Source of the DNA: Chitinophagales bacterium
Lineage (GTDB): Bacteria; Bacteroidota; Bacteroidia; Chitinophagales; Chitinophagaceae
Direction: 5' to 3'
NCBI GenBank assembly: GCA_015655015.1
Contig: JAATFV010000199.1
Span: forward strand, 1-64,000
DNA length: 64,000 nucleotides
Shown in pieces: positions 2,899 through 17,961 of the stretch (positions are counted from its first letter, which is position 1; each line of letters starts with the position of its first letter). Both the position numbers and the translations under genes were made by a program. The notes under the pieces were generated by a model that ran no database searches, had not been told where the DNA came from, and saw only the letters and a list, made by a program, of their open reading frames with translations.

Positions 2899-3943
2899 AT
2901 GCAACCGTACCACATGGAGAGGCTAAAATCCATTTTTCGCGGCGAGCCTGAAAAATATCCGGCATTGACAGGTATAAGGGCCTGTGGGGCTATCGCTGTT
3001 TTCTTCGATCATTTTCCTCTTGGGGAAGGGTTTCATCCCCTTATCAATGTGATGGCTTTTTTCTACGTGCTGAGCGGTTTCCTGATCGTGCGTCTTTACT
3101 ATGATAAGGTCAAACCTGATCCGGGATGGCTTTGGAATTTTTTCGTCAGACGATTTTCCCGTATATATCCTGTTTATTTTCTCCTTCTCACTATAACCAT
3201 ATGGTTAGATCCCGCATTACGTGACCTGCTCCGGCACCCTATGTCCAACCCGGTGCTGCTGATCAGGAATTATACCCTTACCCATGCCTTATTTCATTAT
3301 GTACCGGATATAATCCTTGGGCTAAGCTGGTCGCTCACTGTGGAAGAAACTTTTTATTTTTTATCACCAATCTTTATGCTACTGGCGAAGAGGTTTAATT
3401 TTATAGTCTCTTTCCTGTTTGCTAGCCCTTGCTCTTATAATTATGCGTCTTGAAAAGAAAGGTTTTCCCAAAAAGAAAGGAATTAAGTGGACCCTAACGG
3501 GCAGTATCGGAATTCTCGGGCTGATCATTCATATGATGTATGTTTATGGGCATCGTCCATTGGATCCGGTGGCGATTATCGTGAGCAACAATTTTTTAAT
3601 CCCGATCCCGATAGCCATGTTGTATTACGGACTTATACGGGAGGATACCTGGCCGGCAAGAAGGCTGTCGGGAAAAATAGCTGAAATATTGGGGCGGAGC
3701 TCCTATTCTTTTTACCTGTTGCATACGATCATTATTCAGTATGTCAGCGTACCCTTGCTGTCCTCTTTTTTCGGCGGGCACCGTAAGCTGGACGTTTTCG
3801 TGACGTTGACCGGTACTTATCTTCTTTCCATCCTGCTGTTCATGCTGTATGAGGAACCTCTTAATTTATTGATCAGAAGAATATTCCTTTCTAAGGAGAA
3901 GAAGAACTATCCTGTCGTAGCCGGGAATACAAGCTCCGGATAA
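2899..3943 (+). pseudogene. acyltransferase 3 (OafA/YrhL-type), frameshifted
   Basis: This reads as one integral-membrane acyltransferase split into two frames. The first frame (2899-3453) carries the family marks: GIRACGAIAVFFDHF with the catalytic-type His, FFYVLSGFLIV, RRFSRIYPVYF and SWSLTVEETFYF. The second frame (3419-3943) continues the transmembrane helices and ends with SSYSFYLLHTIIIQY and YEEPLNLLIRR, the usual C-terminal end of the family. The frames join if one T is removed from the TTT at 3418-3420, giving a smooth hydrophobic helix. The intact protein would be near 345 residues, normal for the family, and would O-acylate a glycan at the inner membrane. The shift may be a real inactivating mutation, a phase-variable site or a sequencing error. 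Its 3' end overlaps the convergent amidohydrolase by 37 bp. Confidence 0.8.
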
Positions 3944-5229
3944 TATCGGAGGATCTCCTGCATCAGGCCGGGCAGATCACCCTGTATGTATTTGAAACTG
4001 TTGCCGATCGCTGTTTTATAGAAAGAAGATACCGGCAGACCGCCGGCGGACGGAGTCTCCAGCAGGGAAGCATCGAACAGGCGTATATTTCCTTTGTGCA
4101 GGACCAGCAGCAGGTCTTCCGGACTAATTGCATAAAAGGCGTCCATTCCTTTCAGCCCTTCCCGGGGACGGGCTATGACGAGGTCAGCACGGCTGCCTGT
4201 TGTCAGCTCTCCGCAGCCGGTCAGTCCCCAGATGGCGGCCGGAGTAGTCGTCAGCATATCCAGCAGCTCGGTGTCCGTTACTTTATTTTCCTCTCTGGCT
4301 ATCCTGATCTGGTCCCAGCTGTTCCAGCTGGCTGTCAGGGTGGAGTCGGTGCCGAACAGAAGGGGAACATTTTTTTTCAGGCGGTCTACGGAAGCGGTGC
4401 CGTCCAGCAGGAAATAATTGGAGGCGGGACACCAGACCAGGGCCTTGAAGAAGGATGCCTGCACTTCGTTCATGGCTACTCCGTGAACGCCGACAAGGGG
4501 TCTTTTAAAAAGGTTCCACCGGAGGAGCCGGTCGATCTCCAGCTTTGCCGCCGTGTCGGTACCTTCTCCGACATGCAGGACAAAGGGATACCGGGTCTTC
4601 CAGGGACTGTTGAGCTTCCACTTCCATCTCTTTTCAAAACCTACGGAATGCATGCAATGATAATCCTGGAAGACGGTGATGAGATTATCGTTTGTTTCCA
4701 GCCGGTCACCGTGGTTCACCACTGTCGTAAAACCGTTGAGCAGATTTTTATAGAGCCCCCACCGGGTACGCAGGGGCTGCGGTATTTTCAGGATTGCCGC
4801 GATCTCGTCTTTATTAAGAGTCTGGATATCCGCTCCCCATTCCCGGTAGTTCCTGTAGATCCTCTTGCCGAAGGAGGGAAACAGGTTGAAATCAAGGTGG
4901 TCATGGGAGTTGATCAAACCGGGGAAGACCAGGGCGTTATTGAAGGACAGGGATAGGTCGGACGGAAGACGGTTGTCCGGAGAGGATCTATTGTCCGGAG
5001 AGGTTCTATTGTCCGGAACGGGTCTATTGTCCGGAGCGGGTCTATTGTTCGAAGAGTGGCTATTATTCTGAGAGGATCTATTGTCCGGAGATAGCTTGTT
5101 CTCCGGAGACACGCTGTTAGCGGTTATTCTTTCGGGTAATGATGGACGAATGGATGTTATCTTTCCGTCCAGGATCTCCAGGTTGATCGCCCCTTCTTTA
5201 CCGGGAAAATGCAGGTTATTGAGCTGCAT
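3907..5229 (-). CDS. amidohydrolase superfamily protein with hexapeptide-repeat insert
   Basis: A metal-dependent hydrolase of the amidohydrolase superfamily (TIM barrel), probably a deaminase or related hydrolase of the TRZ/ATZ or cytosine-deaminase type. Metal ligands are visible: the HxH of INSHDHLDF, His in VLHVGEG, His in VGVHGVAM and Asp in LFGTDST. The C-terminus returns to the small composite beta domain (GSRADLVIARP). An odd feature is the low-complexity insert, residues about 40-90, made of eight Asx-Asn-Arg-x-x-Pro-like hexapeptides between the N-terminal composite domain and the first barrel strand, where homologues normally have a short loop. Its start overlaps the 3' end of the upstream methyltransferase by 14 bp, so the two are co-transcribed. 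The substrate is not inferable. Confidence 0.8.
   Translation of the reverse strand: MQLNNLHFPGKEGAINLEILDGKITSIRPSLPERITANSVSPENKLSPDNRSSQNNSHSSNNRPAPDNRPVPDNRTSPDNRSSPDNRLPSDLSLSFNNALVFPGLINSHDHLDFNLFPSFGKRIYRNYREWGADIQTLNKDEIAAILKIPQPLRTRWGLYKNLLNGFTTVVNHGDRLETNDNLITVFQDYHCMHSVGFEKRWKWKLNSPWKTRYPFVLHVGEGTDTAAKLEIDRLLRWNLFKRPLVGVHGVAMNEVQASFFKALVWCPASNYFLLDGTASVDRLKKNVPLLFGTDSTLTASWNSWDQIRIAREENKVTDTELLDMLTTTPAAIWGLTGCGELTTGSRADLVIARPREGLKGMDAFYAISPEDLLLVLHKGNIRLFDASLLETPSAGGLPVSSFYKTAIGNSFKYIQGDLPGLMQEILRYYPELVFPATTG
4973..5116. repeat. 18-bp in-frame minisatellite (8 units) in the amidohydrolase gene
   Basis: The core TTGTCCGG recurs at 4973, 4991, 5009, 5027, 5081 and, with changes, at 5045, 5063 and 5099, giving an exact 18-bp period. 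Each unit encodes six residues of the form Asx-Asn-Arg-x-x-Pro on the minus strand. Because 18 is a multiple of three, gain or loss of units would alter the linker length without breaking the frame. Confidence 0.9.
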
Positions 5230-5962
5230 CCGGTTTTTTTAAGTGAATGCCATAAATGATGCGGACCCCGCGGAAACGTTCGAAGACCGCCACGGCCTGC
5301 TGTTTTTCGTAATAGGGTTTCATCGTTTCATCAATAACTTTTTCCACTACCAGCTGTTCCTGCAGGCCTAAGCGACTGGTGAGGGCACGGATCTGCCGGA
5401 TAGGGTAGACATGATTGCGGACGGCGATCACTTTTTCTCCTTCGCGGAAAGTCCTTTGTCCCCCTTTGGCCAGCGCCTCGGGGTGATAATCGGTGATGAT
5501 CATGTCTCCGCCGGGTCTTAATACCCGATACCACTCGCGCAGAACAGCTTCCAGGTCGGGGATATGGGCGACCGTCAGGGTGGATAGGATGAGGTCACAG
5601 GAAGCGTCGGGCAGTTCGGGGAGGGCGGATCCTGTCAGCAGGTAAGTCTCGCTGGCCGGGTATTTCTGCCGGAGGATCGCCAGCATGCCGGCAGACACGT
5701 CATAACCCATGAGTCTGGCCGGTTCCCGGTCGAAGATCTTTTTCCAATGCCGTCCCGTTCCGCAGCCGATGTCTGCGATCACCTTGCCGGTGACCGTGAC
5801 CGGCCGGAGCAAGTCCGTACAAAGCGCTTCATCCAGGGCTAACATCAGGTTATCAGGCTGGTGATCGTAACTTTCCGCCCAAATGTCATAGGCCGCCGCG
5901 GGCTCGGACTCTTTCCGGCGGGACGGCATTAAGCGCTGTCTGAGTTTATTTAATAGAGGCAT
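5216..5962 (-). CDS. class I SAM-dependent methyltransferase
   Basis: A soluble methyltransferase of the UbiE/Methyltransf_11 type, about 248 residues. Motif I is VIADIGCGTGRHW, motif II is the acidic end of LMGYDVSAGML, motif IV is DLILSTLTVAHIPD and the post-motif region is LRPGGDMIITDYHPE. The ATG at 5962 is preferred; an in-frame TTG at 5974 adds four residues. It probably forms a two-gene minus-strand unit with the amidohydrolase, whose start it overlaps by 14 bp. It is divergent from the B12 radical SAM operon, and the two starts lie in a mirror-image repeat. The methyl acceptor is unknown. Confidence 0.8.
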   Translation of the reverse strand: MPLLNKLRQRLMPSRRKESEPAAAYDIWAESYDHQPDNLMLALDEALCTDLLRPVTVTGKVIADIGCGTGRHWKKIFDREPARLMGYDVSAGMLAILRQKYPASETYLLTGSALPELPDASCDLILSTLTVAHIPDLEAVLREWYRVLRPGGDMIITDYHPEALAKGGQRTFREGEKVIAVRNHVYPIRQIRALTSRLGLQEQLVVEKVIDETMKPYYEKQQAVAVFERFRGVRIIYGIHLKKPDAAQ

Positions 5963-6002
5963 CCTTTCATACAAAACGGACGTTTATTGTGAGAGGATGC
6001 CT
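5957..6002. promoter_or_regulatory. inverted repeat spanning the two divergent start codons
   Basis: AGGCATCCT (5957-5965) and AGGATGCCT (5994-6002) form a perfect 9-bp inverted repeat; one mismatch further in, TCA and TGA pair as well. Each arm contains one of the divergent ATG codons in the same setting, AGG-ATG-CCT. It may be an operator shared by both transcripts, or two copies of the same translation-start context. Confidence 0.5.
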
Positions 6003-7517
6003 AAAGAGACTATAAATATGCATAAGATTTTATTATTCAATCCCCGAAGCTCTATAAATAAGTACAGAGTACCCAATTCCATCTTACAGATCGCAGCTTC
6101 TGTGGAAGGAAAGTTCGAATGGGTGATCGTGGATGGTAACTGCGAACAGGACCCTTATAAGAAGATCCAATCCTGGCTGAAGACCGGGGAATTTAAATAT
6201 GTAGGTTTCACCACCATGCCTGGCCCGCAGCTCAAACAGGCCATTCCGTATGCGAAACGGATAAGAGAGGAATTCCCCGGAATGGTCATGATCTGGGGAG
6301 GATATTTCGCTTCCAACCAGCACAAGGTGGTGCTCAACTCGGGGTATGTGGATTTTGTCATCAATGGCCCCGGGGACTATGCTTTTCCGGCCCTGATCGA
6401 TGCCCTGGAGAACGACAGGCCTTATGAGCTGATCAAGGGCCTGATCTACCGCCGGGACGGGAAGATCATAAAAACGCAGAAAGAGGATATTTTTGACCAG
6501 GCAGTGCTTCCCCCCCTGCCCTATGACAGGCTGGACAGGTTCTATCCCATGCAGAAATACCTTGGGAAGACCTATCTGGGCAACCGGACGCTGGCTTATC
6601 ATTCGAGCATGGGCTGCCCTTTCACTTGCAGCTTCTGTGCGGTAGTGCCTATTTTCGAGGCGAGATGGAAAGCCAGGACTGCTTTGCAGGTCTACCAGGA
6701 CGTAAAATATATCCAAAAAAAGTGGGGAGCGGATGCCATTGAATTCCATGATAATAATTTTTTCGTGTCGGAAAAAAGGGTGATCGAATTTTCCAACCTG
6801 ATCAAGGATGACAAGATCGTATGGTGGGGGGAGGGACGGATCGACACGATCAATAAATACAAGGACGAGACCCTGGCCCTGATGCGGGCATCGGGGTGTA
6901 AGATGATCTTCTTCGGGGCCGAGACCGGCAATGATGAAATCCTGAAACAGATGGACAAGGGGGGCACCCAGACCGGTGAGCAGATCAGGAGTTTTGCCGC
7001 CAGGATGGCCAGGTTCGATATCATTCCTGAATACTCATTCGTCCTGGGCCTGCCTTCGAAGACGCCGGAGAAAGTGATGGAATATATCGACCAGGATATC
7101 GCCTTTATCAAGGAGATTAAGGCGATCAATCCCGCAACGGAAGTTGTTATTTATATCTATAGCCCGGTGCCGACCGAAGGGTCCGAACTGTATAAATCGA
7201 TCCAGGAGGCGGGATTTAAGTTCCCGGAGAAGCTGGAAGACTGGATCGGGCCGCAATGGGAGAGTTTTGATTTGCGGAAGAATCCGCTGACTCCCTGGCT
7301 GACCTCGGAGATGGTGGATAAGATCAGGGATTTCGAGACGGTGCTGAACGGGTATTATCCAACGGTGTCGGATATTCGCCTCAACGGGCTGAAAAGGAAG
7401 CTGATCCATTTCGTGGCCGGCCTGCGTTATAAAACGAGCCTGTATAAATATCCATACGAGATCAAGCTGCTTCATAAAATATGGAAATACCGGCAGCCGG
7501 AGATACAGGGATTTTAA
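5997..7517 (+). CDS. B12-binding domain radical SAM protein (1)
   Basis: A cobalamin-dependent-type radical SAM enzyme of 506 residues. Residues 1-150 form the Rossmann-like B12-binding domain (start HKILLFNPR; WGGYFASNQHK), without a DxHxxG motif, as is usual in class B radical SAM methylases. The radical SAM domain has the 4Fe-4S cysteines in GCPFTCSFCAV (C207, C211, C214) and a barrel strand MIFFGAETGNDEILKQMDKG. It could carry out methylation of an unreactive carbon, or a ring or rearrangement reaction, on a glycan or lipid precursor. An alternative ATG at 6018 (MHKILLFNP) matches the family start better. It is the first gene of a tightly packed operon running to 15511, with 17 bp to the next start. 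Confidence 0.88.
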   Translation: MPKETINMHKILLFNPRSSINKYRVPNSILQIAASVEGKFEWVIVDGNCEQDPYKKIQSWLKTGEFKYVGFTTMPGPQLKQAIPYAKRIREEFPGMVMIWGGYFASNQHKVVLNSGYVDFVINGPGDYAFPALIDALENDRPYELIKGLIYRRDGKIIKTQKEDIFDQAVLPPLPYDRLDRFYPMQKYLGKTYLGNRTLAYHSSMGCPFTCSFCAVVPIFEARWKARTALQVYQDVKYIQKKWGADAIEFHDNNFFVSEKRVIEFSNLIKDDKIVWWGEGRIDTINKYKDETLALMRASGCKMIFFGAETGNDEILKQMDKGGTQTGEQIRSFAARMARFDIIPEYSFVLGLPSKTPEKVMEYIDQDIAFIKEIKAINPATEVVIYIYSPVPTEGSELYKSIQEAGFKFPEKLEDWIGPQWESFDLRKNPLTPWLTSEMVDKIRDFETVLNGYYPTVSDIRLNGLKRKLIHFVAGLRYKTSLYKYPYEIKLLHKIWKYRQPEIQGF

Positions 7518-7534
7518 TATCAATCAAATTCAGC

Positions 7535-8308
7535 ATGAACTTTTCGGCTCCTTCTATATTGACGAATATCCAGTTCCAGGAATATCCCGGGGAGAGAGAT
7601 CTCCTTTTTGAAAAGAAATATATTCTTATCCTGACCCTGGAGAATCGCCTCATCACCGATGCGGAGCTGATGTTATTACCGGAGATCGCCGGCGACCACC
7701 GGTATTATGGAGAATGGCAGATGCGGAAAAGTTCCGCCCGACGGTTGATCCGCCACCTGTCAGCGCCCGGAAAACCCCTGGAGATTTTGGAGGTAGGTTG
7801 TGGAAACGGTTGGCTGTCCCACCGGCTGGCGGAGATACCGGGTTCGACCGTGACCGGTCTCGACATCAATGTAACCGAGCTGCAACAGGCGGCGCGGGTG
7901 TTCAGGAATGTTCCCAACCTCCGGTGGGTCCAGGGAGATATCCGTTCGGGTATGCTCGGGGACCATCGATATGACCGGATCATCTTTGCAGCGTCCGTTC
8001 AATATTTCCCTTTTCTTAAGGAGATCCTTTATACGGCATTGGCCAACCTGTCGCCGGACGGGGAGATCCATATACTGGATACGCCTCTTTACAAAACAGG
8101 AGAGCTGGAAAAGGCCAGGGACCGTACCCTCACCTATTATACTTCTTTCGGTTATCCCGAGATGGCCGATTTTTATTATCATCATACGATCGATGATCTG
8201 TTTTCTTTTCGTTCCGCCTTCCTGTATAACCCGCAATCCATCCGGAACAGGTGGCAAAGAGTAAAAAACCCTTTTCCCTGGGTCCGGATAAAGAACATTA
8301 AATGCTGA
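7535..8308 (+). CDS. class I SAM methyltransferase, paralogue A
   Basis: About 257 residues. An N-terminal extension of roughly 80 residues (SILTNI, LFEKKYI, LENRL, EWQMRKSSARRL) precedes a Rossmann methyltransferase domain with motif I EVGCGNGWLSHRLAEIPG, motif II TGLDINVTELQQAA and WVQGDIRSG. The ATG at 7535 is chosen because its product MNFSAPSILTNI aligns with the paralogue at 11005; a longer open frame overlaps the preceding gene. It starts 17 bp after the radical SAM gene and ends 4 bp before the next. The shared extension with paralogue B suggests a common acceptor type. The substrate is unknown. Confidence 0.82.
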   Translation: MNFSAPSILTNIQFQEYPGERDLLFEKKYILILTLENRLITDAELMLLPEIAGDHRYYGEWQMRKSSARRLIRHLSAPGKPLEILEVGCGNGWLSHRLAEIPGSTVTGLDINVTELQQAARVFRNVPNLRWVQGDIRSGMLGDHRYDRIIFAASVQYFPFLKEILYTALANLSPDGEIHILDTPLYKTGELEKARDRTLTYYTSFGYPEMADFYYHHTIDDLFSFRSAFLYNPQSIRNRWQRVKNPFPWVRIKNIKC

Positions 8309-8312
8309 CCTT

Positions 8313-9365
8313 ATGAGCGCTCCCTCTCTCTACCATACTTTTCAGCGTTACCGTACTTTACAGACGGACAAAATTACGGCGTTGCCGATCGTGATCCTCA
8401 TGCCGCACAGCGCCTGTAACTGCAAATGCGTGATGTGTGATATCTGGAAAGGCAATCACAATCTGAAACAGCTGACAGAGCGGGATATAGAGGGACTGCT
8501 GGACAGTTTGCGTCGGCTGGGCACGCGATACGTGGCGATGTCGGGAGGGGAAGCGCTGCTGAATCCTAATTTTTTCCGGTTTTGCGCCATCCTGAAAAAA
8601 GAGGATATTAAGATCTCTCTTCTTTCTACGGGGCTCTCGCTTGCCCGGCATGCCGATAACCTGTTATTATGGGTGAATGATATTATTGTTTCGCTGGATG
8701 GGGATGAAAAATTACACGATACTATCCGGAACATTCCAGGCGCCTACCGTAAGCTGAAGGAAGGGGTGCAGCTGCTGCACTCGAAGAACCCGGACTTCCG
8801 GATCACGGGCAGGACGGTCATTCATCGTCTTAATTTCAGGCACTGGCCTGCCATCATCGATGCGGCTGCTGACATGGGGCTGGACCAGATCAGCTTCCTT
8901 CCGGCCGATGTAAGCAGCGAGGCCTTTAATCGCGCCAATCCCTGGGATGAACCCCGTCAGCACGAGATCCTTCCGTCAAAAGAGGAATTACCCGAAGTAC
9001 TGGAGATGATCCGGTCCCTTATCCGGGATTATCAACCTTTCTTCGGGAGCCGGTTTATTGCCGAGTCCCCGGCCAAGCTGAGCAAGATAGGGGAGTATTA
9101 TACCGCCTCCTATGGAATGAATGCATTCCCTTATAAAAAGTGCAATGCTCCCTGGGTGTCGACTGTGGTCGAAGCGGATGGGACTGTCCGGCCCTGCTTC
9201 TTTCTGCCCCCGCTGGGCAATATTCATGAAAATACGCTCACCGATATCCTCAACAGTCCGGCAGCCATTGAATTCAGGAAGAACCTGGATATGGATACGA
9301 ATAGCGCCTGTGTAAAATGTGTCTGTTACCTGCATCTTTCACCCGGGACAAAACTGAACGTCTGA
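8313..9365 (+). CDS. radical SAM protein with SPASM-like C-terminus
   Basis: A 350-residue radical SAM enzyme. The cluster motif is SACNCKCVMCDIWKG (C35, C39, C42), followed by the SAM-binding GGE in YVAMSGGEALLNPN. The C-terminal 70 residues hold additional cysteines (KKCNAPWVSTVVEADGTVRP, then CFF and CVKCVC) in the arrangement of a SPASM or twitch auxiliary-cluster domain. Unlike its radical SAM neighbours it has no B12-binding domain. SPASM enzymes commonly modify peptides but also act on sugars and cofactors. No precursor peptide gene is visible nearby, and a glycan or lipid substrate fits the context better. Its stop overlaps the ATG of the next gene. Confidence 0.85.
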   Translation: MSAPSLYHTFQRYRTLQTDKITALPIVILMPHSACNCKCVMCDIWKGNHNLKQLTERDIEGLLDSLRRLGTRYVAMSGGEALLNPNFFRFCAILKKEDIKISLLSTGLSLARHADNLLLWVNDIIVSLDGDEKLHDTIRNIPGAYRKLKEGVQLLHSKNPDFRITGRTVIHRLNFRHWPAIIDAAADMGLDQISFLPADVSSEAFNRANPWDEPRQHEILPSKEELPEVLEMIRSLIRDYQPFFGSRFIAESPAKLSKIGEYYTASYGMNAFPYKKCNAPWVSTVVEADGTVRPCFFLPPLGNIHENTLTDILNSPAAIEFRKNLDMDTNSACVKCVCYLHLSPGTKLNV

Positions 9366-10921
9366 TGAATGAAATAAAAGCGGTCCTTACTTACCGGCAG
9401 GTCCTTCCGGTATTGGCTTTATATGTCGTTATCAGCGCTGTGGGTTTGCACTATCATGAATTGGGATTGGAAGAAGGGCAGCAATTTTTATTCGGAAGGG
9501 ACAGTGACTCCGTATTCTCTCTTTATCATAATATGCGTTATGAAGGACATCCGCGGCTGTGGTGCCTGCTGTTGTATATGATCACCCATTATATTACGGC
9601 AAGTTATATCGGCCTCCAGGTATTTCATTTACTGATCACGTCCGCCATCGTGTTCGTCTTCATGCGTTACGCGCCCCTGGGGCGGGTGATCAAGACAGGG
9701 ATTGTTTTCAGCTACTATTTCATCTTCGAATACGATATTCAGAGCAGAAGTTATTCATTAGGGATATTATTCCTTTTTTTAACCTGCCTGCTCCTGAGTC
9801 ATCCCGGAAAATACCTTCCCCTTATCGGCTGCCTGCTGGTGCTCCTGTGTAATACCGATCTCTTTTATACATTTGCGGCGATCGGGTTTTTCTTTTACCT
9901 GGTCATGGAATATGCCGGACAAAAGCGGTTATTTACCCGGCCTTTTGGTCTGCTTACCGTATTATTTCTGGCGGGTATCGCCTGTTCCCTTATTCAGGCG
10001 CAGATTCCCCGGGAGGATTATATCCTTCATACCCATCCGTCGGAGTGGCTGTCAGGTAAAAATATGCACGCGGGCCTTCTTGCCCTGATTGGAGGATGGT
10101 TTCCTGTTCCGCAGGACCGGATGCATTTTTGGAATACCTTCCGGATAGATGGACCGGGCATAGGAAACTTCGTCAAAGTGGTGCTGTTCCTGCTCCTTTT
10201 ACTTTTTCCCGGCGCCGTGTTGAAGGACCACCGGAAAGCGCTGATCTTTTACTATAGCAGCCTCTTTTTATTGCTGGCTTTCCTGGTCGTCACCGGGATC
10301 GGGGCTGCGAGATATTTTGGGATGGTGTTTATCTATTTTCTGTCGGCCTGCTGGATAGCCGGGAACGGCGCAAACCCTTTTTTTTCATTCGGCAGCGCAG
10401 GGAAAGCATCTTTCCTCCGGATTTTTTCCCGGAGTATATTCTGCTTTATCCTGGTGGTGCAGTTCGGGGTAGGCCTGTACGCCCTGGAGCAGGATATCAG
10501 GCGTCCTTTTTCTCAGTCAAAAAATGCCATTGCTTATGTGAAGGAGCAGCAGCTGGCCGGACAGGCAGTGGTAGTCGACGGTTATATCGCAGGCCCAGCC
10601 CTATGCGTCTACCTGGAGAAAAAAGTGTGGTATCTCAATACCGGCGGGGAAGGCAGCTTCTGCTATTGGCGAAGACCTTATTTTCCAATACCGCCGAAGA
10701 CGATCACGGAGGAGATGGGCCAATCGCCCTTTTTGCAGAAATTCGACAAATTCCTTCTGTTGTCCAACAGGGAAATAGATGGGAAATTGGTGCAGGAGGG
10801 AACCGCGGATTTCCGTTTCAATCCCTCACGGAGTTTCCAGGGCGGCATTCTTCCTGCGGAGGACTGTTATATCTACCAGGTAACCAGGAGAACAAATCGT
10901 CCGGGACTACTTAATTTATGA
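9365..10921 (+). CDS. polytopic membrane protein, GT-C/GT39-like
   Basis: About 518 residues with some ten or more hydrophobic segments and a C-terminal soluble part of roughly 130 residues. The layout resembles GT-C fold, polyprenyl-phosphate-sugar-dependent transferases (ArnT/PMT/GT39): a first helix, then a periplasmic loop with acidic residues (LGLEEGQQFLFGRDSD) and the motif NMRYEGHPRLW, followed by many helices. The ATG at 9365 overlaps the stop of the preceding gene (TGATG), so translation is probably coupled. It may transfer a sugar from a lipid carrier to the operon product on the periplasmic side. The family assignment rests on topology and weak motifs only. Confidence 0.6.
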   Translation: MNEIKAVLTYRQVLPVLALYVVISAVGLHYHELGLEEGQQFLFGRDSDSVFSLYHNMRYEGHPRLWCLLLYMITHYITASYIGLQVFHLLITSAIVFVFMRYAPLGRVIKTGIVFSYYFIFEYDIQSRSYSLGILFLFLTCLLLSHPGKYLPLIGCLLVLLCNTDLFYTFAAIGFFFYLVMEYAGQKRLFTRPFGLLTVLFLAGIACSLIQAQIPREDYILHTHPSEWLSGKNMHAGLLALIGGWFPVPQDRMHFWNTFRIDGPGIGNFVKVVLFLLLLLFPGAVLKDHRKALIFYYSSLFLLLAFLVVTGIGAARYFGMVFIYFLSACWIAGNGANPFFSFGSAGKASFLRIFSRSIFCFILVVQFGVGLYALEQDIRRPFSQSKNAIAYVKEQQLAGQAVVVDGYIAGPALCVYLEKKVWYLNTGGEGSFCYWRRPYFPIPPKTITEEMGQSPFLQKFDKFLLLSNREIDGKLVQEGTADFRFNPSRSFQGGILPAEDCYIYQVTRRTNRPGLLNL

Positions 10922-11004
10922 CAGGGGCATCCTTTATTGCAAAAGAAGCGTTTATTCTAATCGGATGCCAGAATCTAATGTATCCTGTTAAACGTTCAAC
11001 GAAA

Positions 11005-11769
11005 ATGCATTTACCGGACTCTTCCATATTGACGAATATACGTGTTCACGGGCATGCGAGGCTCGGCGATATGCTGTTCGAAAAGAAGTATATCACCATC
11101 CGCAGTCTGGAGAACAGGCTTTGTACCGATGATGACCTGCTGAAATTACCCGATCTGCCCACGGATCATCCCCATTACAGGGAATGGCAGATCCGTAAGC
11201 GGTCTGCCCGGCGCCTGGTGCGTTATCTGACGGCTGTGAGAAAGCCCCTGGATATCCTGGAGATCGGCTGCGGCAATGGCTGGCTGTCTCATCAGCTGGC
11301 GGAAATACCCGGTACGAGAGTGACGGGGCTCGATATCAATTTCACCGAGCTTCAGCAGGCGGCCAGGGTGTTCAATGACGACCCCAACCTGACTTTCATA
11401 CAGGGAGATATACGGTCGGGGATATTAGCCGACCAGGTATACGATTTCATCATCTTCGCCGATTCGATCCAGTATTTCCCTTCTCTTAAAAAAATAATAC
11501 ATCTTACTCTTTCTTACCTTAAACCTGGGGGAGAGATACATATAACCGATACCCGGTTGTACAAGACAGGGGAAGGTGAAACAGCCAAAAGACACACCCT
11601 TGCCTATTATACGTCCCTGGGATACCCGGAGATGGCCGATTTTCTTTTTCATCATAACAGTCATGATCTGCGGTCTTTCCATTACCGGTTGCTGTATAAT
11701 CCAAAGGCTTTTGGCAACAGGCTGTTGAGGAAGAGGGATGGGCTCGACTGGGTGCGTATCAGTAATTAG
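11005..11769 (+). CDS. class I SAM methyltransferase, paralogue B
   Basis: A close relative of the methyltransferase at 7535, with the same 80-residue N-terminal extension (SILTNI, MLFEKKYI, SLENRL, EWQIRKRSARRL), motif I EIGCGNGWLSHQLAEIPG, TGLDINFTELQQAARVF and IQGDIRSG. The ATG at 11005 (MHLPDSSILTNI) is chosen by alignment with the paralogue; upstream in-frame ATGs at 10918 and 10978 would add unconserved residues. It is followed after 22 bp by a B12 radical SAM gene, as its paralogue is preceded by one. The duplication suggests two methylations on similar positions, or two related acceptors. Confidence 0.82.
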   Translation: MHLPDSSILTNIRVHGHARLGDMLFEKKYITIRSLENRLCTDDDLLKLPDLPTDHPHYREWQIRKRSARRLVRYLTAVRKPLDILEIGCGNGWLSHQLAEIPGTRVTGLDINFTELQQAARVFNDDPNLTFIQGDIRSGILADQVYDFIIFADSIQYFPSLKKIIHLTLSYLKPGGEIHITDTRLYKTGEGETAKRHTLAYYTSLGYPEMADFLFHHNSHDLRSFHYRLLYNPKAFGNRLLRKRDGLDWVRISN

Positions 11770-11791
11770 TTACCTTATTTTCGTTGCAGAC

Positions 11792-13306
11792 ATGAATACT
11801 ATCCTTTTTTCTCATTCTTATTTTCTGCGGTTCGATCCCAAACAATGGGCGACGGCGCAGCCTTATCCGCCATTGGCTACCATTGGCGCTGCGGCCCTGA
11901 TGAGAGAGAACGGGTGGCGGGTATCCCTGTTCGATACGATGTTCGTTGGAGACCCGAATGAGGTGACGCCTGTGCTGAAAACGGAGCGGCCGGATTTTTT
12001 CGTGGTCTATGATGATGGGTTCAATTATCTCACGAAGATGTGCCTGACCAATATGCGGGACGCGGCCTACCGGATGATCCGGCTGGCGAAGGACCGGGGC
12101 TGCACGGTGATCCTGTCCAGCTCGGACTCTACGGATCATTATGAAGAGTATCTCCGGCAGGGAGCCGACTTCGTCCTGCTGGGGGAAGGGGAGCAGACCC
12201 TGCTTGAGCTGGTCACTGCGCTCCGGGATAATAATCAGCGGGATCCCGTTTCTTCCGGAAGTCCCACCGACTTTTCGGCGATCCGGGGATTGGCCTATCT
12301 GCAGAACCAGCTGCCGTTGAAGACGGCTGCACGACCGGTAATGAGAGACCTGGATGCCCTTCCCCTGCCGGCCTGGGACCTGGTGAAAATGGAGGATTAC
12401 CGGAACATCTGGATGAAGCAGCATGGCTATTTTTCCCTGAATATCAGCACAACGCGGGGATGTCCCTTTAAGTGCAACTGGTGCGCCAAGCCTATTTATG
12501 GCAACCGGTATCATGCCCGGTCTCCGCTGCATGTGATAAAGGAGCTTAAAGAATTGAAAGAGAAATACGCTTTTGATCATATCTGGTTCTGTGACGATAT
12601 TTTCGGGCTCAAGCCGGGATGGGTGTCGGCATTTGCCGACCTGGTGGAATCGGAAGATCTCCGGTTCCGGTTCAAGATACAGTCCAGGGCCGACCTGCTC
12701 CTGCAGCAAAACTATGTTGAGGCGCTGGCCCGTGCAGGCTGTGAGAATAGCTGGATGGGGGCGGAGAGCGGATCGCAAAAGATATTGGATGCCATGGACA
12801 AAGGCACCACGATCGAACAGATCACCGGCGCCACCCGCCTGTTGCGGGAACATGGCATCCGGCCTTCCTTCTTTATCCAGTTCGGCTATCCGGGCGAGGT
12901 AAAAGAAGATATCGAAATGACCATCCGGATGATCAGGAAGTTGTTGCCCCATGAAATAGGCATATCTGTTTCTTACCCCTTGCCGGGCACGCTGTTCTAC
13001 GAAAAGGTAAAAGCGGAATTAAAGGAAAAAGCCAATTGGACGGACTCGGACGAATTGCAACTAATGTTCAAAAGTACATACCCTCCTGTATTCTATAAAA
13101 AATTGCACCGGTACGTGCACCGTGAATTCCGGAACCGGCAAGGATGGATGACGCTGAGGAAGGCGTTAAAAGCACCGTTTTCCCTGGGCTTCAAGGAATA
13201 CAAAAGAGTAATGGCCGCCTGTTGGTATTTTCCCGGCCTTATTGTCGAGAAGATCCGGTTGGGTCAATATATGAGAGTGAACCTGAACCGACCTGTAAAT
13301 GACTAA
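11792..13306 (+). CDS. B12-binding domain radical SAM protein (2)
   Basis: About 504 residues. The N-terminal B12-binding-like domain spans about 1-150 (LATIGAAALMRENGWRVSLF; VLLGEGEQTLLELV). The radical SAM core has TTRGCPFKCNWCAKPIYG with C224, C228 and C231, followed by barrel strands HIWFCDDIFGLKPGW, WMGAESGSQKILDAMDKG and FFIQFGYPGEVKEDI. The form matches the BchE/hopanoid-methylase-like class (Elp3/MiaB-type HMM). The start is the ATG at 11792 in the normal family position; the frame is open further upstream. It overlaps the next methyltransferase gene by 8 bp. It is similar in plan to radical SAM protein 3 at 14105. Confidence 0.88.
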   Translation: MNTILFSHSYFLRFDPKQWATAQPYPPLATIGAAALMRENGWRVSLFDTMFVGDPNEVTPVLKTERPDFFVVYDDGFNYLTKMCLTNMRDAAYRMIRLAKDRGCTVILSSSDSTDHYEEYLRQGADFVLLGEGEQTLLELVTALRDNNQRDPVSSGSPTDFSAIRGLAYLQNQLPLKTAARPVMRDLDALPLPAWDLVKMEDYRNIWMKQHGYFSLNISTTRGCPFKCNWCAKPIYGNRYHARSPLHVIKELKELKEKYAFDHIWFCDDIFGLKPGWVSAFADLVESEDLRFRFKIQSRADLLLQQNYVEALARAGCENSWMGAESGSQKILDAMDKGTTIEQITGATRLLREHGIRPSFFIQFGYPGEVKEDIEMTIRMIRKLLPHEIGISVSYPLPGTLFYEKVKAELKEKANWTDSDELQLMFKSTYPPVFYKKLHRYVHREFRNRQGWMTLRKALKAPFSLGFKEYKRVMAACWYFPGLIVEKIRLGQYMRVNLNRPVND

Positions 13307-14108
13307 AGAAGCAGCCTTTGACGCCCTTGCGGCCGAATATGATGCCGTGTTCAGCCAAAGCCTGATTGGGGTGCAACAACGCGGGATAAGCAGAAAATGG
13401 CTGGAGGCCTTTCTGGCAGGCAAGGGCAGCTTGCGGATACTGGAGATTAACTGCGGCACCGGCGAGGATGCCTGGTGGCTTGCCTCCCGGGGACACGAGG
13501 TAACAGCCACTGACCAGTCGGCGGGTATGATCCGCAGCGCGCAGCAGAAAGCCGCTGCATTCCATGATGGGAGGGAAGTAAACTTCAAAGTATGTGCCTT
13601 TGAAGAATTGAGCACTGTGTTTGGCCATGGATCATTCGATCTCATATTTTCCAATTTTTCCGGACTTAATTGCGTGTCTCCGGCCGATCTTTCCGAACTA
13701 GGCGGGCAATTGCGGGATCTGGTGGCGGATAACGGGCATCTCGCAGCCGTGCTCTTCGGAAAATACAGTTGGTGGGAGACGGCGTACTTTTTAGAAAAGG
13801 CCGATTGCCGCGAGGCTTTCAGAAGGTGGGGCCATAAGGAAGTGAGGGTGCGGCTCAGGGAAGGTGTTTATCAACCCGTTTATTATTATTCTGCGAGACA
13901 GTTTGCCCGGATATTACACCCGTTCCGGCTGCTGGCAAAACGACCCGTAGGGTTATTTATTCCTCCCTCGTATATGGAAGGGTTGATGCGAAGAAGCCCG
14001 CGGTTATTCCGTTTGCTGATCAGGCTGGAAAAAATGTCGGGCCGTCTTTCACGGTTCAGCCAGCTGGCGGATCATATCTATATTCTTTTCAAAAAAAAAG
14101 CGACATGA
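13299..14108 (+). CDS. class I SAM methyltransferase (third in operon)
   Basis: A 269-residue methyltransferase beginning directly with the catalytic domain: FDALAAEYDAVFSQS, motif I ILEINCGTGEDAWWLA, motif II VTATDQSAGMI and FDLIFSNFSGLNCV. It lacks the N-terminal extension of paralogues A and B. The C-terminal third (VYQPVYYYSARQFARIL and the aromatic-rich end) is typical of small-molecule methyltransferases of the Methyltransf_11/25 type. Its start overlaps the preceding gene by 8 bp and its stop overlaps the next ATG (ATGA), indicating translational coupling. The acceptor is unknown. Confidence 0.82.
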   Translation: MTKEAAFDALAAEYDAVFSQSLIGVQQRGISRKWLEAFLAGKGSLRILEINCGTGEDAWWLASRGHEVTATDQSAGMIRSAQQKAAAFHDGREVNFKVCAFEELSTVFGHGSFDLIFSNFSGLNCVSPADLSELGGQLRDLVADNGHLAAVLFGKYSWWETAYFLEKADCREAFRRWGHKEVRVRLREGVYQPVYYYSARQFARILHPFRLLAKRPVGLFIPPSYMEGLMRRSPRLFRLLIRLEKMSGRLSRFSQLADHIYILFKKKAT

Positions 14109-15511
14109 AAATACTGCTTACGCATGGATATTTTCTCGAAGAGGATGAGAAAGAAAAAACCATTATGCGTCCATACGTTCCATTGGGCATCCTGTATATT
14201 TCAGCCTACCTCGAACAACAGGGTTATGACAATGATGTTTTTGACAGCACCTTCTCTTCTTTTGAGCGGCTTTGCGCTTTTCTTTTAGAGAACCGGCCGG
14301 ATGTGGTGGGCATTTATACCAATTTAATGACGAAACTTAATGTATTGCGAATCATACGTTTTGTGAAGAGCCAGGAGTCATTAAAGGCTACCAGGATAGT
14401 GTTGGGTGGCCCGGAGACCAGGAATCATATAGTAAAATTTCTGGAGCATCGTGCCGATTTCATCGTGCTGGGAGAAGGGGAGCAAACGATGCTGGAATTG
14501 GTGCAGTGGCTGGATGGAAGACGTGAAGGCAGCCTGTCCGCCATAGATGGGATCGCCTACCTGGACAGCGAGGGAGGTATGCGCCAGAATCGTGAACGGG
14601 CCAAATTAAAGAACTATGACGAATTGCCGATGCCCAACCGTCAGAAGGTCGACCTGCAGTTGTACCTGGACGCCTGGAAGAAACATCATGGCACCAATAC
14701 GATATCCGTAAGCACCATGCGAGGGTGCCCCTATAGCTGTAAATGGTGCAGCAGGGCCGTTTATGGACAAAGCTACCGAAGAAGGAGCGCCGTAAGCGTC
14801 GTAGACGAAATAGCCTGGATAAAAGAGCATTATGACGTGGACAGTCTGTGGTTTGTAGACGATGTATTCACCGTCAGTCATAAATGGATGGAGGAATTCA
14901 CCGACGAAATTAAAAGGCGCCGCCTGATGATCCCTTATGAATGCATCACCAGGGCCGATCGCATGAATGAAACGGTGATCCGCCAGTTACAGGAAAGCGG
15001 GTGCTTCCGCGTATGGATCGGAGCGGAGAGCGGTTCGCAAAAAGTAATCGACCTGATGGATCGGAGAGTAGAGATACAACAGGTGCAGGATATGATCCGG
15101 TTGGCGAAACGATTCGGCATCCAGGCCGGCACATTCATTATGGTTGGTTATCCCGGTGAAACAAAAGAAGACATCTATGCCACGGTGCATCATCTGAAAG
15201 CATCGGATCCTGATCTGTTCACTATAACGGTCGCTTATCCCATTAAAGGCACCCCCCTGTATGCGGAAGTGGAAGATCGCTTTCTTACGAATCTTCCCTG
15301 GGAAAGCAGTACGGACCGGGATATTGATTTTGGGCGAACCTATAACCGGAAATATTATGATCTTGCCATCAGTATGATCAATCATGAAATGCGTTACCAT
15401 AAAGCGCTCAAAAAGCCCGTATCCAACCTGCTGCGGCTGCCGGGGCTTAAGCTGAGATCGGTGTTGGCACAAAGCGCTATGTTGCTGGAAGAAAGAAAAA
15501 AAGTCGATTAG
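14105..15511 (+). CDS. B12-binding domain radical SAM protein (3)
   Basis: A 468-residue enzyme with an N-terminal B12-binding-like domain (RPYVPLGILYISAYLEQQGY; FIVLGEGEQTMLELV) and a radical SAM domain with STMRGCPYSCKWCSR (C208, C212, C215), then LWFVDDVFTVSHKWM, WIGAESGSQKVIDLMDRR and FIMVGYPGETKEDIY. It is the last gene of the operon. It overlaps the preceding gene by 4 bp, and its 3' end overlaps the convergent nucleotidyltransferase-like gene by 4 bp. It shares the family plan of the protein at 11792, so the two may act on successive intermediates. Confidence 0.88.
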   Translation: MKILLTHGYFLEEDEKEKTIMRPYVPLGILYISAYLEQQGYDNDVFDSTFSSFERLCAFLLENRPDVVGIYTNLMTKLNVLRIIRFVKSQESLKATRIVLGGPETRNHIVKFLEHRADFIVLGEGEQTMLELVQWLDGRREGSLSAIDGIAYLDSEGGMRQNRERAKLKNYDELPMPNRQKVDLQLYLDAWKKHHGTNTISVSTMRGCPYSCKWCSRAVYGQSYRRRSAVSVVDEIAWIKEHYDVDSLWFVDDVFTVSHKWMEEFTDEIKRRRLMIPYECITRADRMNETVIRQLQESGCFRVWIGAESGSQKVIDLMDRRVEIQQVQDMIRLAKRFGIQAGTFIMVGYPGETKEDIYATVHHLKASDPDLFTITVAYPIKGTPLYAEVEDRFLTNLPWESSTDRDIDFGRTYNRKYYDLAISMINHEMRYHKALKKPVSNLLRLPGLKLRSVLAQSAMLLEERKKVD

Positions 15512-16422
15512 TCTTTCAACTTCCATTTCGTTTCGAATTCTTTTAACTTGTCGTTATAGACCGACAGGATTTTCTTTTGAAAATTCTCCGGGTTGGGCCG
15601 GGAAAAATGTTTGCCTGTCTTTAAGGACATCCTGTTCCCTTTTTCATTGAGGAGACCTCTTTCCTCCTTATCCTTCCAGCGCCGGGAGGTCAGACGGCGG
15701 AGAAAATCGTCCAGCCGGTCACCGGCCCTGTTGTCGAAGACCTTTTCCAGGGTCCGTTTAAGAAAGGAAGGGGGGGGATAGACGGATGCTGCCCGTTGCC
15801 GTTGCCGGTATTGGGGGAAATATTCGGTCGCCCAGTCGTTGGCATCGAAGAATTTTACCAGGCCTCCGTTGCCGCAGGCAGGCAACAGGGTGATCAGTTC
15901 GGTGGCCGTAAAAATATTTTTCTCTTCTATTTCCAGGGCCTCTTCGTCCACATAATAGTTCATGCAGTACCAGTGCTGCTTCCCTGTGAGAAAGCTCCAT
16001 TTTTTGAACAGGTGCATGAAGGTCCTTGCGATCCAGAGCCTGTTTGACCGGGTGATGATAAAATAATCGATGTCGGCGTCTTCGTCTGCATAGTGCTTGG
16101 ACAAGGAGCCGGAGATGCCTATTCCCCGGACATAGGGAAATTGGTAGAGGAAACGGGATACCCTATCCGCTATCACCAGTAATTCGGCTGCATGCTTATT
16201 CCCCCTGATCCTTCGCTCTGCTGCCCCGGGGTCGTCCCGGAGAGAATAAAAAGGGCCCAGCCTGAACAGGCGTTGTTCTGTGATGAGAGTTTCCAGCGTC
16301 CGATCCAATTCGGGCGCCTGCACATCCTGGTCAAGAAAGAACAGGATGTCTTCCGCAGAGACGGGATAATTAAAAAGGTCGAAGTAGGCTAATACTTTCA
16401 ATATACCTGATCGTAAGGGCAT
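15508..16422 (-). CDS. nucleotidyltransferase-fold protein
   Basis: About 304 residues. A winged-helix-like N-terminus (ILKVLAYFDLFNYPVSAEDI) precedes a minimal nucleotidyltransferase (MNT/NTP_transf_2) motif, GSLSKHYADEDADIDYFI, where the GS and the Asp-x-Asp pair are the usual nucleotide and metal ligands. The C-terminus is basic and partly helical. Such proteins transfer a nucleotide to a small molecule or protein, but no specific family was recognised. The ATG at 16422 (MPLRSGILKV) is chosen over a longer open frame to 16575, which would run over the divergent gene start at 16454. It overlaps the convergent radical SAM gene by 4 bp. Confidence 0.65.
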   Translation of the reverse strand: MPLRSGILKVLAYFDLFNYPVSAEDILFFLDQDVQAPELDRTLETLITEQRLFRLGPFYSLRDDPGAAERRIRGNKHAAELLVIADRVSRFLYQFPYVRGIGISGSLSKHYADEDADIDYFIITRSNRLWIARTFMHLFKKWSFLTGKQHWYCMNYYVDEEALEIEEKNIFTATELITLLPACGNGGLVKFFDANDWATEYFPQYRQRQRAASVYPPPSFLKRTLEKVFDNRAGDRLDDFLRRLTSRRWKDKEERGLLNEKGNRMSLKTGKHFSRPNPENFQKKILSVYNDKLKEFETKWKLKD

Positions 16423-16453
16423 AGATAGTAAAACGTGCTTTCCCGATAAGGGG

Positions 16454-16888
16454 TTGCTTATGTTGCAGGCAACTGTTTGTTTTCCTGCTGCGTTTGAACT
16501 GGTAATGACTGTTAAAGCTGACAATATTCCAGGTTTGATACGGAAGATCCGGAACTCCCCGAAAAGTACGTCCAAAAGGATTGTTCCGGACTTGAGAAAA
16601 AGCTATTTCTTCTTCAAGAGATCTTTTGATATAATACTGCCTTCCGACAGTCATCGGTTTGCTGCCATGATACCCGGGCATGACTACCGGAATTTCGTAA
16701 AGCCGGGAATAACAGGGCTGGCGCAGATAAAAGGCCTTCATAGGCCTAAAACGGATTTGAAGACTATTTTCTGGCGTTATCAATGGGATGCTTTTTATGT
16801 TCGCAATGCAGGCTTCCTGCTGGACCTTCGTATTCTCCGCCAGACCTTCCTGTTTTTTTTCACCCAACAGATGCCTATATGCGGGTAG
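16454..16888 (+). pseudogene. truncated bacterial sugar transferase (WcaJ/WbaP-type) remnant
   Basis: The predicted product of about 144 residues keeps the two ends of a polyprenyl-phosphate sugar-1-phosphate transferase domain. The membrane-entry start FFFKRSFDIIL is followed almost directly by the C-terminal block FVKPGITGLAQIKGLHRP and DAFYVRNAGFLLDLRILRQT. The middle of the domain (about 100 residues, including the catalytic Asp-Glu and the RPE/RPH motif) is missing, so it should be inactive as initiating phosphoglycosyltransferase. An internal deletion is the simplest cause. It overlaps the next glycosyltransferase start by 10 bp, as expected for an operon. It may be a dead gene kept for transcriptional continuity. 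Confidence 0.65.
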
Positions 16889-17961
16889 TATTCATTACAA
16901 GGGCGACCCTTTATTCCGTAAAGGGAGGGGATACTTTACAGGTGCGTGAGACAGCAAGGCACCTGGAGGAATTGGGTATCCGGGTGGATATCAGGCTGAC
17001 CAATGAAAAGATCACCTATGAACAGTACGATCTGCTCCACTTTTTTAATATCATACGACCGGCAGACATCCTTTTCCATATCCGTCAATCTGCGACTCCC
17101 TTTGTCGTCTCCACGCTGCTGGTCGATTACAGCGGGTATGACCGGTTATACAGAAAGGGTATTGCCGGTTTGATCTTTAAATGGCTATCCTCCGATGCGA
17201 TCGAGTACCTGAAAACCATGGCCCGGTATCTGTTAGGGAAGGATGAATTGATGAGCAAGGCGTATCTGTGGAAGGGCCAGCAGCGATCCGTCCGGGAAAT
17301 ACTGGGCCGGGCCTCCCTGCTGTTTTCCAATTCTGTCATGGAATATAAAAAACTGGTAGAGCAATATCAATGTTCCACAGGATGCGTCCCTGTTCCGAAT
17401 GGACTGGATGCGACATTGTTTGCCTTCGATGAGGGATTGGAAAAGGACAATCAGCTGGTCTTGTGTGTGGCGAGGATCGAAGGGATAAAGAACCAGGTCA
17501 ACCTGATCCGTGCGCTGAATAATACCTCTTACCAATTACTGATCATTGGATCCCCTGCGCCCAATCAGGCTGCGTATTACCGGGAATGCCGAAAAATAGC
17601 CGCTTCCAACGTTCATTTTATCGGGCATATTCCTCAGCGGGAGTTAGTACAATATTATCAAAAAGCGAAAGTGCATATTCTGCCAAGCTGGTTTGAGACC
17701 TGTGGGTTATCCTCCCTGGAGGCAGGTGCGATGGGATGCAACATCGTGATCACGGATAAAGGGTATACACGGGAATACTATGAAGATCATGCTTTCTATT
17801 GTGATCCCGGCAGTCCCGATAGTATTTTCAGGGCGGTGGATCATGCCGCCAATACCGGGTCCCGTCCTGCGCTGAGAAAGAAGATCTTAACGAACTATAC
17901 CTGGGATCTGGCTGCTGCCTGTATCGCCCGGTCCTATCATCAAATATTGGATCCATTATGA
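16879..17961 (+). CDS. glycosyltransferase family 4
   Basis: A GT-B glycosyltransferase of about 360 residues. It starts with MRVVFITRATLYSVKGGDTLQV (an N-terminal glycine-rich loop), has the linker PVPNGLDATLF, a donor domain opening at LVLCVARIEGIKNQVNLI and the EX7E-like stretch SWFETCGLSSLEAGAMG. The ATG at 16879 lies inside the end of the truncated sugar transferase gene and matches the family start. The downstream DUF1972-type glycosyltransferase overlaps it by 4 bp, so both probably build the same oligosaccharide. Substrate specificity is unknown. Confidence 0.85.
   Translation: MRVVFITRATLYSVKGGDTLQVRETARHLEELGIRVDIRLTNEKITYEQYDLLHFFNIIRPADILFHIRQSATPFVVSTLLVDYSGYDRLYRKGIAGLIFKWLSSDAIEYLKTMARYLLGKDELMSKAYLWKGQQRSVREILGRASLLFSNSVMEYKKLVEQYQCSTGCVPVPNGLDATLFAFDEGLEKDNQLVLCVARIEGIKNQVNLIRALNNTSYQLLIIGSPAPNQAAYYRECRKIAASNVHFIGHIPQRELVQYYQKAKVHILPSWFETCGLSSLEAGAMGCNIVITDKGYTREYYEDHAFYCDPGSPDSIFRAVDHAANTGSRPALRKKILTNYTWDLAAACIARSYHQILDPL

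Follow-up and report, generated by a model that had tools for sequence, protein, structure and literature searches.

Gene Organization of the Eight-Gene Run

The stretch of DNA analysed here (hereafter, the window) spans 64,000 nucleotides of contig JAATFV010000199.1 (positions 1 to 64,000, forward strand) from the Chitinophagales bacterium assembly GCA_015655015.1, and carries at nt 5997–15511 a run of eight open reading frames, designated A to H and all located on the plus strand. The run had been proposed, from the sequence alone, as an operon of eight mostly overlapping same-strand genes (hereafter, the original prediction), and this layout was confirmed, with consecutive reading frames overlapping by 4–49 bases except for B and C, which are 4 bases apart. 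Four genes encode radical S-adenosylmethionine (SAM) enzymes: A (nt 5997–7517), of the B12 type and over the cut-offs of both PF04055 and PF02310, which is the best conserved member of the island described below; C (nt 8313–9365), with a SPASM/twitch-type auxiliary cluster domain (PF04055 and PF13186); F (nt 11738–13306), with a degenerate B12-like domain; and H (nt 14105–15511), of the B12 type, accessory and placed in a clade apart from F. Three class I methyltransferases are encoded by B (nt 7481–8308; Methyltransf_25 and other Pfam families), a diverged duplicate of E, by E itself (nt 10918–11769), recognised from its identity to the copies of relatives as the regular B/E-type member, and by G (nt 13299–14108), assigned by tree to the type of the MT3 family that travels with H. 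The remaining gene, D (nt 9317–10921), codes for a predicted membrane glycosyltransferase of the glycosyltransferase C (GT-C) fold and is an optional member. The predicted composition, i.e., four radical SAM enzymes, one of them a SPASM enzyme, three methyltransferases and a GT-C-like protein, was borne out by Pfam for all but D, for which it rested on an AlphaFold model and Foldseek.

Some of the called starts are probably too early, as judged from alignment; in the case of F, most aligned relatives start 54 bases further in, with a probable start near nt 11792. The host genome consists of 259 contigs and holds 19 Radical_SAM matches, 4 of which lie inside A–H. No Rfam family reached its gathering score in nt 1–22000 of the window, hence no riboswitch match was obtained, and a promoter scan of nt 5200–16600 retrieved 13 sites against 12.9 in shuffled sequences, with no excess. 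A plasmid origin was rejected, F being without a match at 1e-20 among 72,556 plasmids.

Radical SAM Enzymes A, F, H and C

All four enzymes exceed the Pfam cut-off for Radical_SAM (PF04055) and the CxxxCxxC motif, as anticipated, is intact in every copy measured (A 97/97, F 99/99, H 9/9 and C 79/79). Three of them had been proposed to be B12-type enzymes. This stood for A and H, which pass the cut-off of the Pfam B12-binding domain (33.7 and 55.8 bits, respectively, against 32.1), and became uncertain for F, which remains below it (22.1 bits). The GG loop, which in B12 domains holds the tail of the cofactor, was found in 95 of 97 copies of A, the exceptions being those of the loci numbered L197 and L198. 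A strict pattern recovered it from 5 of 9 copies of H, with two of the remaining four, those printed, reading GGPD. It was found in none of the 99 copies of F, 89 of which show an SSDS/SSDA-type pattern instead, thus making the B12-enzyme label uncertain for this protein. AprD4 has a B12-like domain that is not known to bind cobalamin, and F, lacking the GG loop, may therefore carry a cobalamin-free domain of the same kind.

In an alignment of 14, A shows 61–81% identity to 13 relatives, all from its genus or family, and H is 74% identical to its copy in Longitalea. F and H form separate clades, with H in a clade of its own (100% in the Shimodaira–Hasegawa-like approximate likelihood ratio test, SH-aLRT). 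Among the matches listed for A, F and H no NCBIfam equivalog cut-off was reached (HpnJ, BchE, AprD4, PhpK and others), the best scores being 121, 133 and 160 bits against cut-offs of 578, 481 and 600, respectively; identification of any of the three as a known enzyme was rejected, all of them lying far under these values. In a sequence search of the PDB, AprD4 of apramycin biosynthesis topped the matches of both A (3e-10) and H (1e-15), and those of C were led by SkfB and cytosylglucuronate decarboxylase. C matches the SPASM domain (PF13186) with an E-value of 2.5e-13; C35, C39 and C42, as well as C277, C295, C333, C336 and C338, are conserved without exception in an alignment of 11 copies, the C.[AG]PW pattern occurs in 74 of 79 copies, and the C-terminal auxiliary cysteines of the SPASM/twitch class are present.

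Methyltransferases B, E, G and the GT-C Protein D

B and E are paralogues sharing 61% identity, and E is up to 69% identical to the copies present in relatives. In the MT3 tree, the G protein of the window pairs with the Longitalea copy (99% SH-aLRT, 51% identity), just as H does, so that G–H looks like an accessory pair. All 8 MT3 proteins from loci with H group in a single supported set; this set has ten rows and contains long branches.

D had no Pfam or NCBIfam match. Its AlphaFold model (mean predicted local distance difference test, pLDDT, 81) retrieved by Foldseek only GT-C proteins in rows 1–15, namely ALG12, AftA, ArnT, DPY19, PglB, OST, ALG3, EmbC and AftB, with two rows at E-values up to 0.001, the best of them (2.5e-4) having template modeling (TM) scores of 0.46–0.50. 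The model thus points to a GT-C membrane fold, and a glycosyltransferase role is predicted. Other GT-C-like types occur near the place of D in other loci, D being an optional member that comes in several types.

A Recurring Gene Set in Bacteroidota

To evaluate the conservation of the run, a profile was built from 14 A proteins, which found at least 549 relatives in species genomes. The best 80 of these were taken (68–81% identity), belonging to Puia, Mucilaginibacter, Dyadobacter, Ferruginibacter, Pinibacter and many metagenome-assembled genomes, and were read in six frames together with the window and with 29 loci from Bacteroidota genomes found by A or by F plus NT, the latter being a nucleotidyltransferase-like protein encoded next to H (see below). 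The resulting 110 loci, referred to by number (L) as are the genomes (G), include 98 with A, counting a fragment in L206 and very distant copies in L197 and L198; 77 of the 98 are complete, i.e., extend at least 3.5 kb upstream and at least 7 kb downstream of A. In the complete loci F was present in 73 cases and F or H in 75, MT3 in 74, C in 64 and NT in 63; the two genes preceding A, termed amH and m1 (see below), were found in 61 and 60, a B/E-type methyltransferase and a PglK-like ATP-binding cassette (ABC) protein in 49 each, a Wzy_C protein in 41, a further methyltransferase (MT20) in 13 and H in 5. Over all 110 loci, H occurs in 9.

The recurring set is hence composed of A, a B/E-type methyltransferase, C, F, a G-family methyltransferase, NT, amH and m1. 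The exact A–H set of the window was seen in none of the other loci examined, and the B/E duplication, D and G–H are not shared by most of them. With respect to the original prediction, which had left room for eight genes that never co-occur elsewhere, co-occurrence was found (75 of 77 loci with A have F or H) and the conserved set is real. The proposed unit did not hold as this operon of eight, D being optional and G–H accessory, nor did its boundaries at nt 5997 and 15511, since amH and m1 (divergent) and NT (convergent), which lie outside them, are also regular members.

A sample of 395 Bacteroidota genomes was then considered, with E-value cut-offs of 1e-60 for A, 1e-80 for F/H, 1e-10 for NT and 1e-50 for C, and with at most 3 candidates per genome scored for A, 4 for F and 5 for C and NT. 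F/H was found in 27 genomes, NT in 31, C in 11 and A in at least 18, the last figure being a lower bound because of the limit of 3 candidates. All 18 genomes with A and all 11 with C are among the 27 with F/H (hypergeometric p ≈ 8e-25 for A, relatedness uncorrected); for G393, which counts among the 18, the sole A copy is the distant one of L197. The distance between F and NT is at most 4.4 kb in 27/27 F/H genomes and at most 300 bases in 20 of them, F–NT being the most widespread pair of the island. The 4 genomes with NT and without F show weak, partial NT matches (E-values from 1e-11 to 1e-18).

Two further observations were made in the surveyed loci. In L136 (Dyadobacter frigoris), A groups among Mucilaginibacter copies and most of the island lies around it, which suggests transfer between families. 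A conserved neighbour without any Pfam or NCBIfam match (nt 1920–2888 of the window, plus strand) is present in 28 of the 77 complete loci.

Flanking Members amH, m1 and NT

The three flanking genes, all on the minus strand and all recurring beside A in other genomes, encode an aminohydrolase of the ATZ/TRZ deaminase type (amH, nt 3907–5229; PF01979), a class I methyltransferase recognised by Pfam (m1, nt 5216–5974), which overlaps amH and is divergent from A, and NT (nt 15508–16575), convergent with H and overlapping it by 4 bases. HxH, HxxE and GTD patterns, the motif of the ATZ/TRZ deaminase family, are present in 73/73 copies of amH, and the metal and acid residues of the class (HxH, HxxE, H and D) were recovered, with invariant columns in an 18-copy alignment. 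The best NCBIfam match of amH was the aminofutalosine deaminase family, with 35.5 bits against a cut-off of 320, and a PDB sequence search retrieved nothing at 1e-6. A frame-keeping tandem repeat (nt 4973–5091; 18 bases × 6.6) was observed in amH of the window, as an insert absent from 17/17 aligned relatives.

NT had no Pfam family match. In its AlphaFold model (mean pLDDT 83, with residues 1–50 under 50), a helical N-terminal domain with a small hairpin is followed by an alpha/beta domain, and the protein was read from this model as a winged helix plus a Pol-beta-like nucleotidyltransferase domain. Weak Foldseek matches were obtained with HI0073, ANT-4 and kanamycin nucleotidyltransferase (E-values 0.08–0.2), with match probabilities up to 0.96 among the rows of this fold. 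A GSLSK..DxD motif is present in 73 of 84 copies.

Module Swaps, Fusions and Deaminases

Of the 77 complete loci, 60 carry both amH and m1, a single one carries amH without m1, and 3 have neither amH nor MT20. MT20 (13/77) was never found with amH or m1 in the same complete locus (Fisher p 3e-12 for amH and 1e-11 for m1, relatedness uncorrected). On the tree of A, which was obtained by a quick search and has 89 of 97 copies labelled, there are 9 changes between the MT20 and m1 labels, of which no fewer than 5 are forced by supported branches. This distribution indicates that the amH–m1 pair has been swapped repeatedly for another methyltransferase, MT20.

A small dCMP-deaminase-type protein, identified by Pfam in the two copies scanned out of four, lies next to members of the module in 4/110 loci, adjoining F–NT in L199, L203 and L205 and A and C in L197, and never together with amH; both copies read have an apparent N-terminal membrane helix. 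It is therefore plausible, on few cases, that a deamination step is met by two unrelated folds. Fusions were also detected: in L202, F and MT3 form one protein of 727 amino acids, and L195 encodes an MT3 of 567 amino acids whose C-terminal part is weakly similar, below the Pfam cut-off, to GT29 (a sialyltransferase family). L206, from genome G430, carries NT, F, MT3, amH and MT20, with a 112-residue stretch of A next to MT20, perhaps a decayed A.

Glycan-Assembly Neighbourhood

Downstream of NT, the window encodes on the plus strand two glycosyltransferases (nt 16783–19223), the second being most similar to the rhamnosyltransferase Cps2T (NF046071, E-value 1.7e-57, 195 bits against a cut-off of 500), and a Wzy_C ligase/polymerase-like protein (nt 19183–20490; PF04932, E-value 2.9e-16). 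Neighbours were surveyed in 96 loci, 15 of which are just 4.5 kb long. Two glycosyltransferase clusters were found in 62 and 61 of them, the PglK-like ABC protein in 53 (copy of L139: NF050066, E-value 1.2e-59, 202 bits against a cut-off of 1000), the Cps2T-like glycosyltransferase in 41, the Wzy_C protein in 38 and a sugar transferase in 22. By their sequence similarities, these frequent neighbours are genes of lipid-linked glycan assembly, and their recurrence agrees with the glycan island, including an O-antigen ligase-like gene, in which the original prediction had placed the run. The module of more distant Bacteroidota also houses GT87 and GT9 enzymes. Glycan genes also accompany 6 of the 13 F–NT regions without A (L199, L200, L201, L203, L206 and L209; L206 having the A fragment).

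In the window, the rhamnosyltransferase-like gene contains a frame-keeping tandem repeat at nt 18942–19065 (27 bases × 4.6). On the other side of the run, an acyltransferase-like gene (nt 2899–3943, plus strand) is seemingly split into two overlapping frames of 184 and 174 amino acids, only the second of which matches PF01757, below the cut-off.

Proposed Function and Alternative Explanations

The gene set, its conservation, the swaps and the glycan-assembly neighbours reported above are direct observations. Taken together, they make it probable, if only just in our judgement, that A–H is the form taken in this genome, with added genes, by a conserved Bacteroidota island whose products make a tailored unit of a lipid-linked surface glycan and install it. 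A possible sequence of events would start with the transfer by NT of a nucleotide onto the substrate, as a tag or as activation, followed by a radical step carried out by F on the tagged substrate and finished by the MT3-type methyltransferase. Where H is present, H and its own methyltransferase G would perform a second step of the same kind, A might catalyse a further radical C–C or C-methyl step, and C might oxidise or rearrange the intermediate. amH would take an amino group off a C=N carbon, with m1 contributing a coupled methylation, a part that in some lineages would be played by MT20 instead. Glycosyltransferases would then assemble the unit on a polyprenyl carrier and the PglK-like transporter would flip it, after which an enzyme of the GT-C fold (D, for example) might add a sugar drawn from a polyprenyl-phosphate donor and the Wzy_C enzyme would polymerise or ligate the unit. 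We infer that the product may contain a C- or O-methylated or ring-modified sugar, as was originally suggested.

Several points weigh against this interpretation. Each chemical step is derived from genes, motifs, folds and co-occurrence, and the missing GG loop of F sits badly with methylation by this enzyme. In the Foldseek search with NT no row was obtained at E-values up to 0.001 and most of the first rows were winged-helix regulators; the first two were a winged-helix-type protein and a regulator, and the best nucleotidyltransferase, MntA, came in row 3 with an E-value of 0.023 and a TM score of about 0.2 by query length. The best 80 of at least 549 loci were picked for having A, so that near relatives are over-represented. 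The A copies of L197 and L198 are very distant (28–29% identity, long branches), L197 has neither F nor NT, in L189 A and NT are present and F lies on another contig of that genome, and L206, which carries amH with MT20, is an exception to a clean swap. In 7 of the 13 F–NT regions (L202, L204, L205, L207, L208, L210 and L211) no glycan genes were recognised by eye, and F–NT may thus have a wider role; three of these seven genomes (G393, G408 and G441) have A elsewhere. The proteins scanned yielded no recognisable dehydratase or epimerase of sugar nucleotides (NDP-sugars), with no search aimed at them, which leaves the sugar unspecified. The window is also without an ABC transporter gene, because the contig starts at window base 1. 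Furthermore, nt 16499–16885 (plus strand) hold a remnant of a bacterial sugar transferase (PF02397), of which relatives have a longer copy at the same position; the matches of both ends adjoin in one frame and about 100 middle residues are gone, which may reflect a true deletion or an assembly fault.

The regions lacking recognised glycan genes would suit a set devoted to a diffusible small molecule (an aminocyclitol, nucleoside or phosphonate-like compound), with the glycan genes as neighbours or mere glycosylators. This would also account for the antibiotic-cluster enzyme types that lead the matches of A and H (AprD4) and of C (SkfB, cytosylglucuronate decarboxylase), and for the presence of a deaminase and a nucleotidyltransferase. 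We nevertheless regard it as unlikely, as a ligase and glycosyltransferases are repeatedly found beside the set in Chitinophagaceae, Mucilaginibacter and Dyadobacter, joined in the first two groups by a flippase, and the scanned proteins included none recognised as a synthetase or carrier protein, although no search was aimed at these. It is even less probable that the radical enzymes modify a lipid, such as the polyprenyl carrier, a hopanoid-like or another membrane lipid, rather than a sugar. HpnJ ranks among the top NCBIfam models for A and F, and the lipid-biosynthesis model TIGR04072 is matched by all three enzymes (A, F and H), in both cases far below cut-off; GT-C and GT87 enzymes, which use polyprenyl-phosphate donors, are present in the islands. 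The likeness to HpnJ and BchE, however, is only at the superfamily level, and the recurrent members include no recognised gene of the terpene cyclase, fatty-acid or desaturase kind, again with no search aimed at these.

The prevalence of F–NT, the winged helix modelled in NT and the regions L204, L205, L210 and L211, where the pair stands without other recognised members except a methyltransferase or deaminase, might instead suggest that NT and F modify a nucleic acid or a cofactor of general metabolism, the remainder having been added later. A patchy occurrence in 27 of 395 genomes is unlike a housekeeping modification, MT3 is present in 11 of the 13 regions L199–L211, and F–NT is found with glycosyltransferases in several classes, so that this explanation appears quite improbable. 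As to a fortuitous assemblage of unrelated enzymes confined to one genome, to which the absence of the B/E duplication, D and G–H from most loci could be ascribed, it is refuted by the neighbourhood survey and the 110-locus counts and retains next to no probability: the core set is kept across families and classes, and 18/18 genomes with A are among the 27 with F/H.

Returning to the tailored glycan unit, a more ambitious version of it is put forward as a tentative and rather doubtful proposal, namely that the island makes a phylum-wide, undescribed class of glycan building blocks by a nucleotide-tagged radical cascade. NT would set the tag, F (having lost cobalamin), H and A would act in successive steps, F and H each with its own methyltransferase, and interchangeable deaminase modules would finish the product. 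If true, the cascade would be a radical-chemistry counterpart of the nonulosonic acid or bacillosamine pathways. To our knowledge, tailoring by radical SAM enzymes has been described chiefly for antibiotics and cofactors. A conserved set of such enzymes within the surface-glycan loci of Bacteroidota such as Mucilaginibacter and Puia would make radical chemistry on sugars a matter of ordinary cell-surface biology, and would predict new sugars that may escape standard glycan analysis. The repeated exchange of two genes for one offers natural experiments for working out the steps, and, as named strains carry the island, the question is directly testable.

Comparison with Known Systems

A literature search, mostly outside subscription journals, turned up no paper describing this cluster, in accordance with the original prediction, for which no described pathway of this composition was known. 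Among the closest systems, MoeK5 acts on the uronamide of a lipid-linked glycan. The available part of one source names GenK, GenD1 and MoeK5 as methylases of gentamicin and moenomycin biosynthesis (PMC8992657). The island resembles them in having B12-type radical SAM enzymes in a pathway of glycosylated molecules, and differs in having two or three such enzymes together with a nucleotidyltransferase-like protein, a SPASM enzyme and a deaminase, in its Bacteroidota surface-glycan setting and in reaching no NCBIfam equivalog cut-off among the matches listed. AprD4, the radical diol-dehydratase of apramycin biosynthesis, is the best PDB sequence match of A and H; A, F and H nonetheless lie far below the AprD4 family cut-off, and an AprD3-like reductase, which was not searched for, was not recognised. 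HpnJ (hopanoid) and BchE are the two top family models for A and F, and the second and fourth for H, with 116–151 bits against cut-offs of 481 and 578.

In the fosfomycin pathway, Fom1 is expected to have a nucleotidyltransferase fold different from that of NT. Fom3 methylates a CMP-tagged phosphonate substrate, as stated in the available part of PMC8158854, and tagging with a nucleotide ahead of radical methylation is a logic that NT and F would share. Unlike Fom3, F has no GG loop, and no phosphonate genes were recognised, none having been searched for. The futalosine pathway employs the radical SAM enzyme MqnE and an aminofutalosine deaminase, thus resembling the island in combining a radical SAM enzyme with an ATZ/TRZ-type deaminase; in contrast, C is a SPASM enzyme, and no other Mqn gene, which again was not searched for, was recognised.

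Finally, protein O-glycans of Bacteroidota are often methylated, and their core flippase, oligosaccharyltransferase and ligase are still unknown, according to the available part of PMC12871550, which also describes the LFG locus, with metG, a wzx flippase and two terminal glycosyltransferases, and an O-glycan on a D-S/T motif. As far as this part of the source goes, the island differs from the LFG locus (metG, wzx) in often having a PglK-like ABC protein and a Wzy_C protein, and shares with it a flippase, glycosyltransferases and, as predicted for the island, methylated glycans. A link between the island and the protein O-glycans of Bacteroidota is possible.

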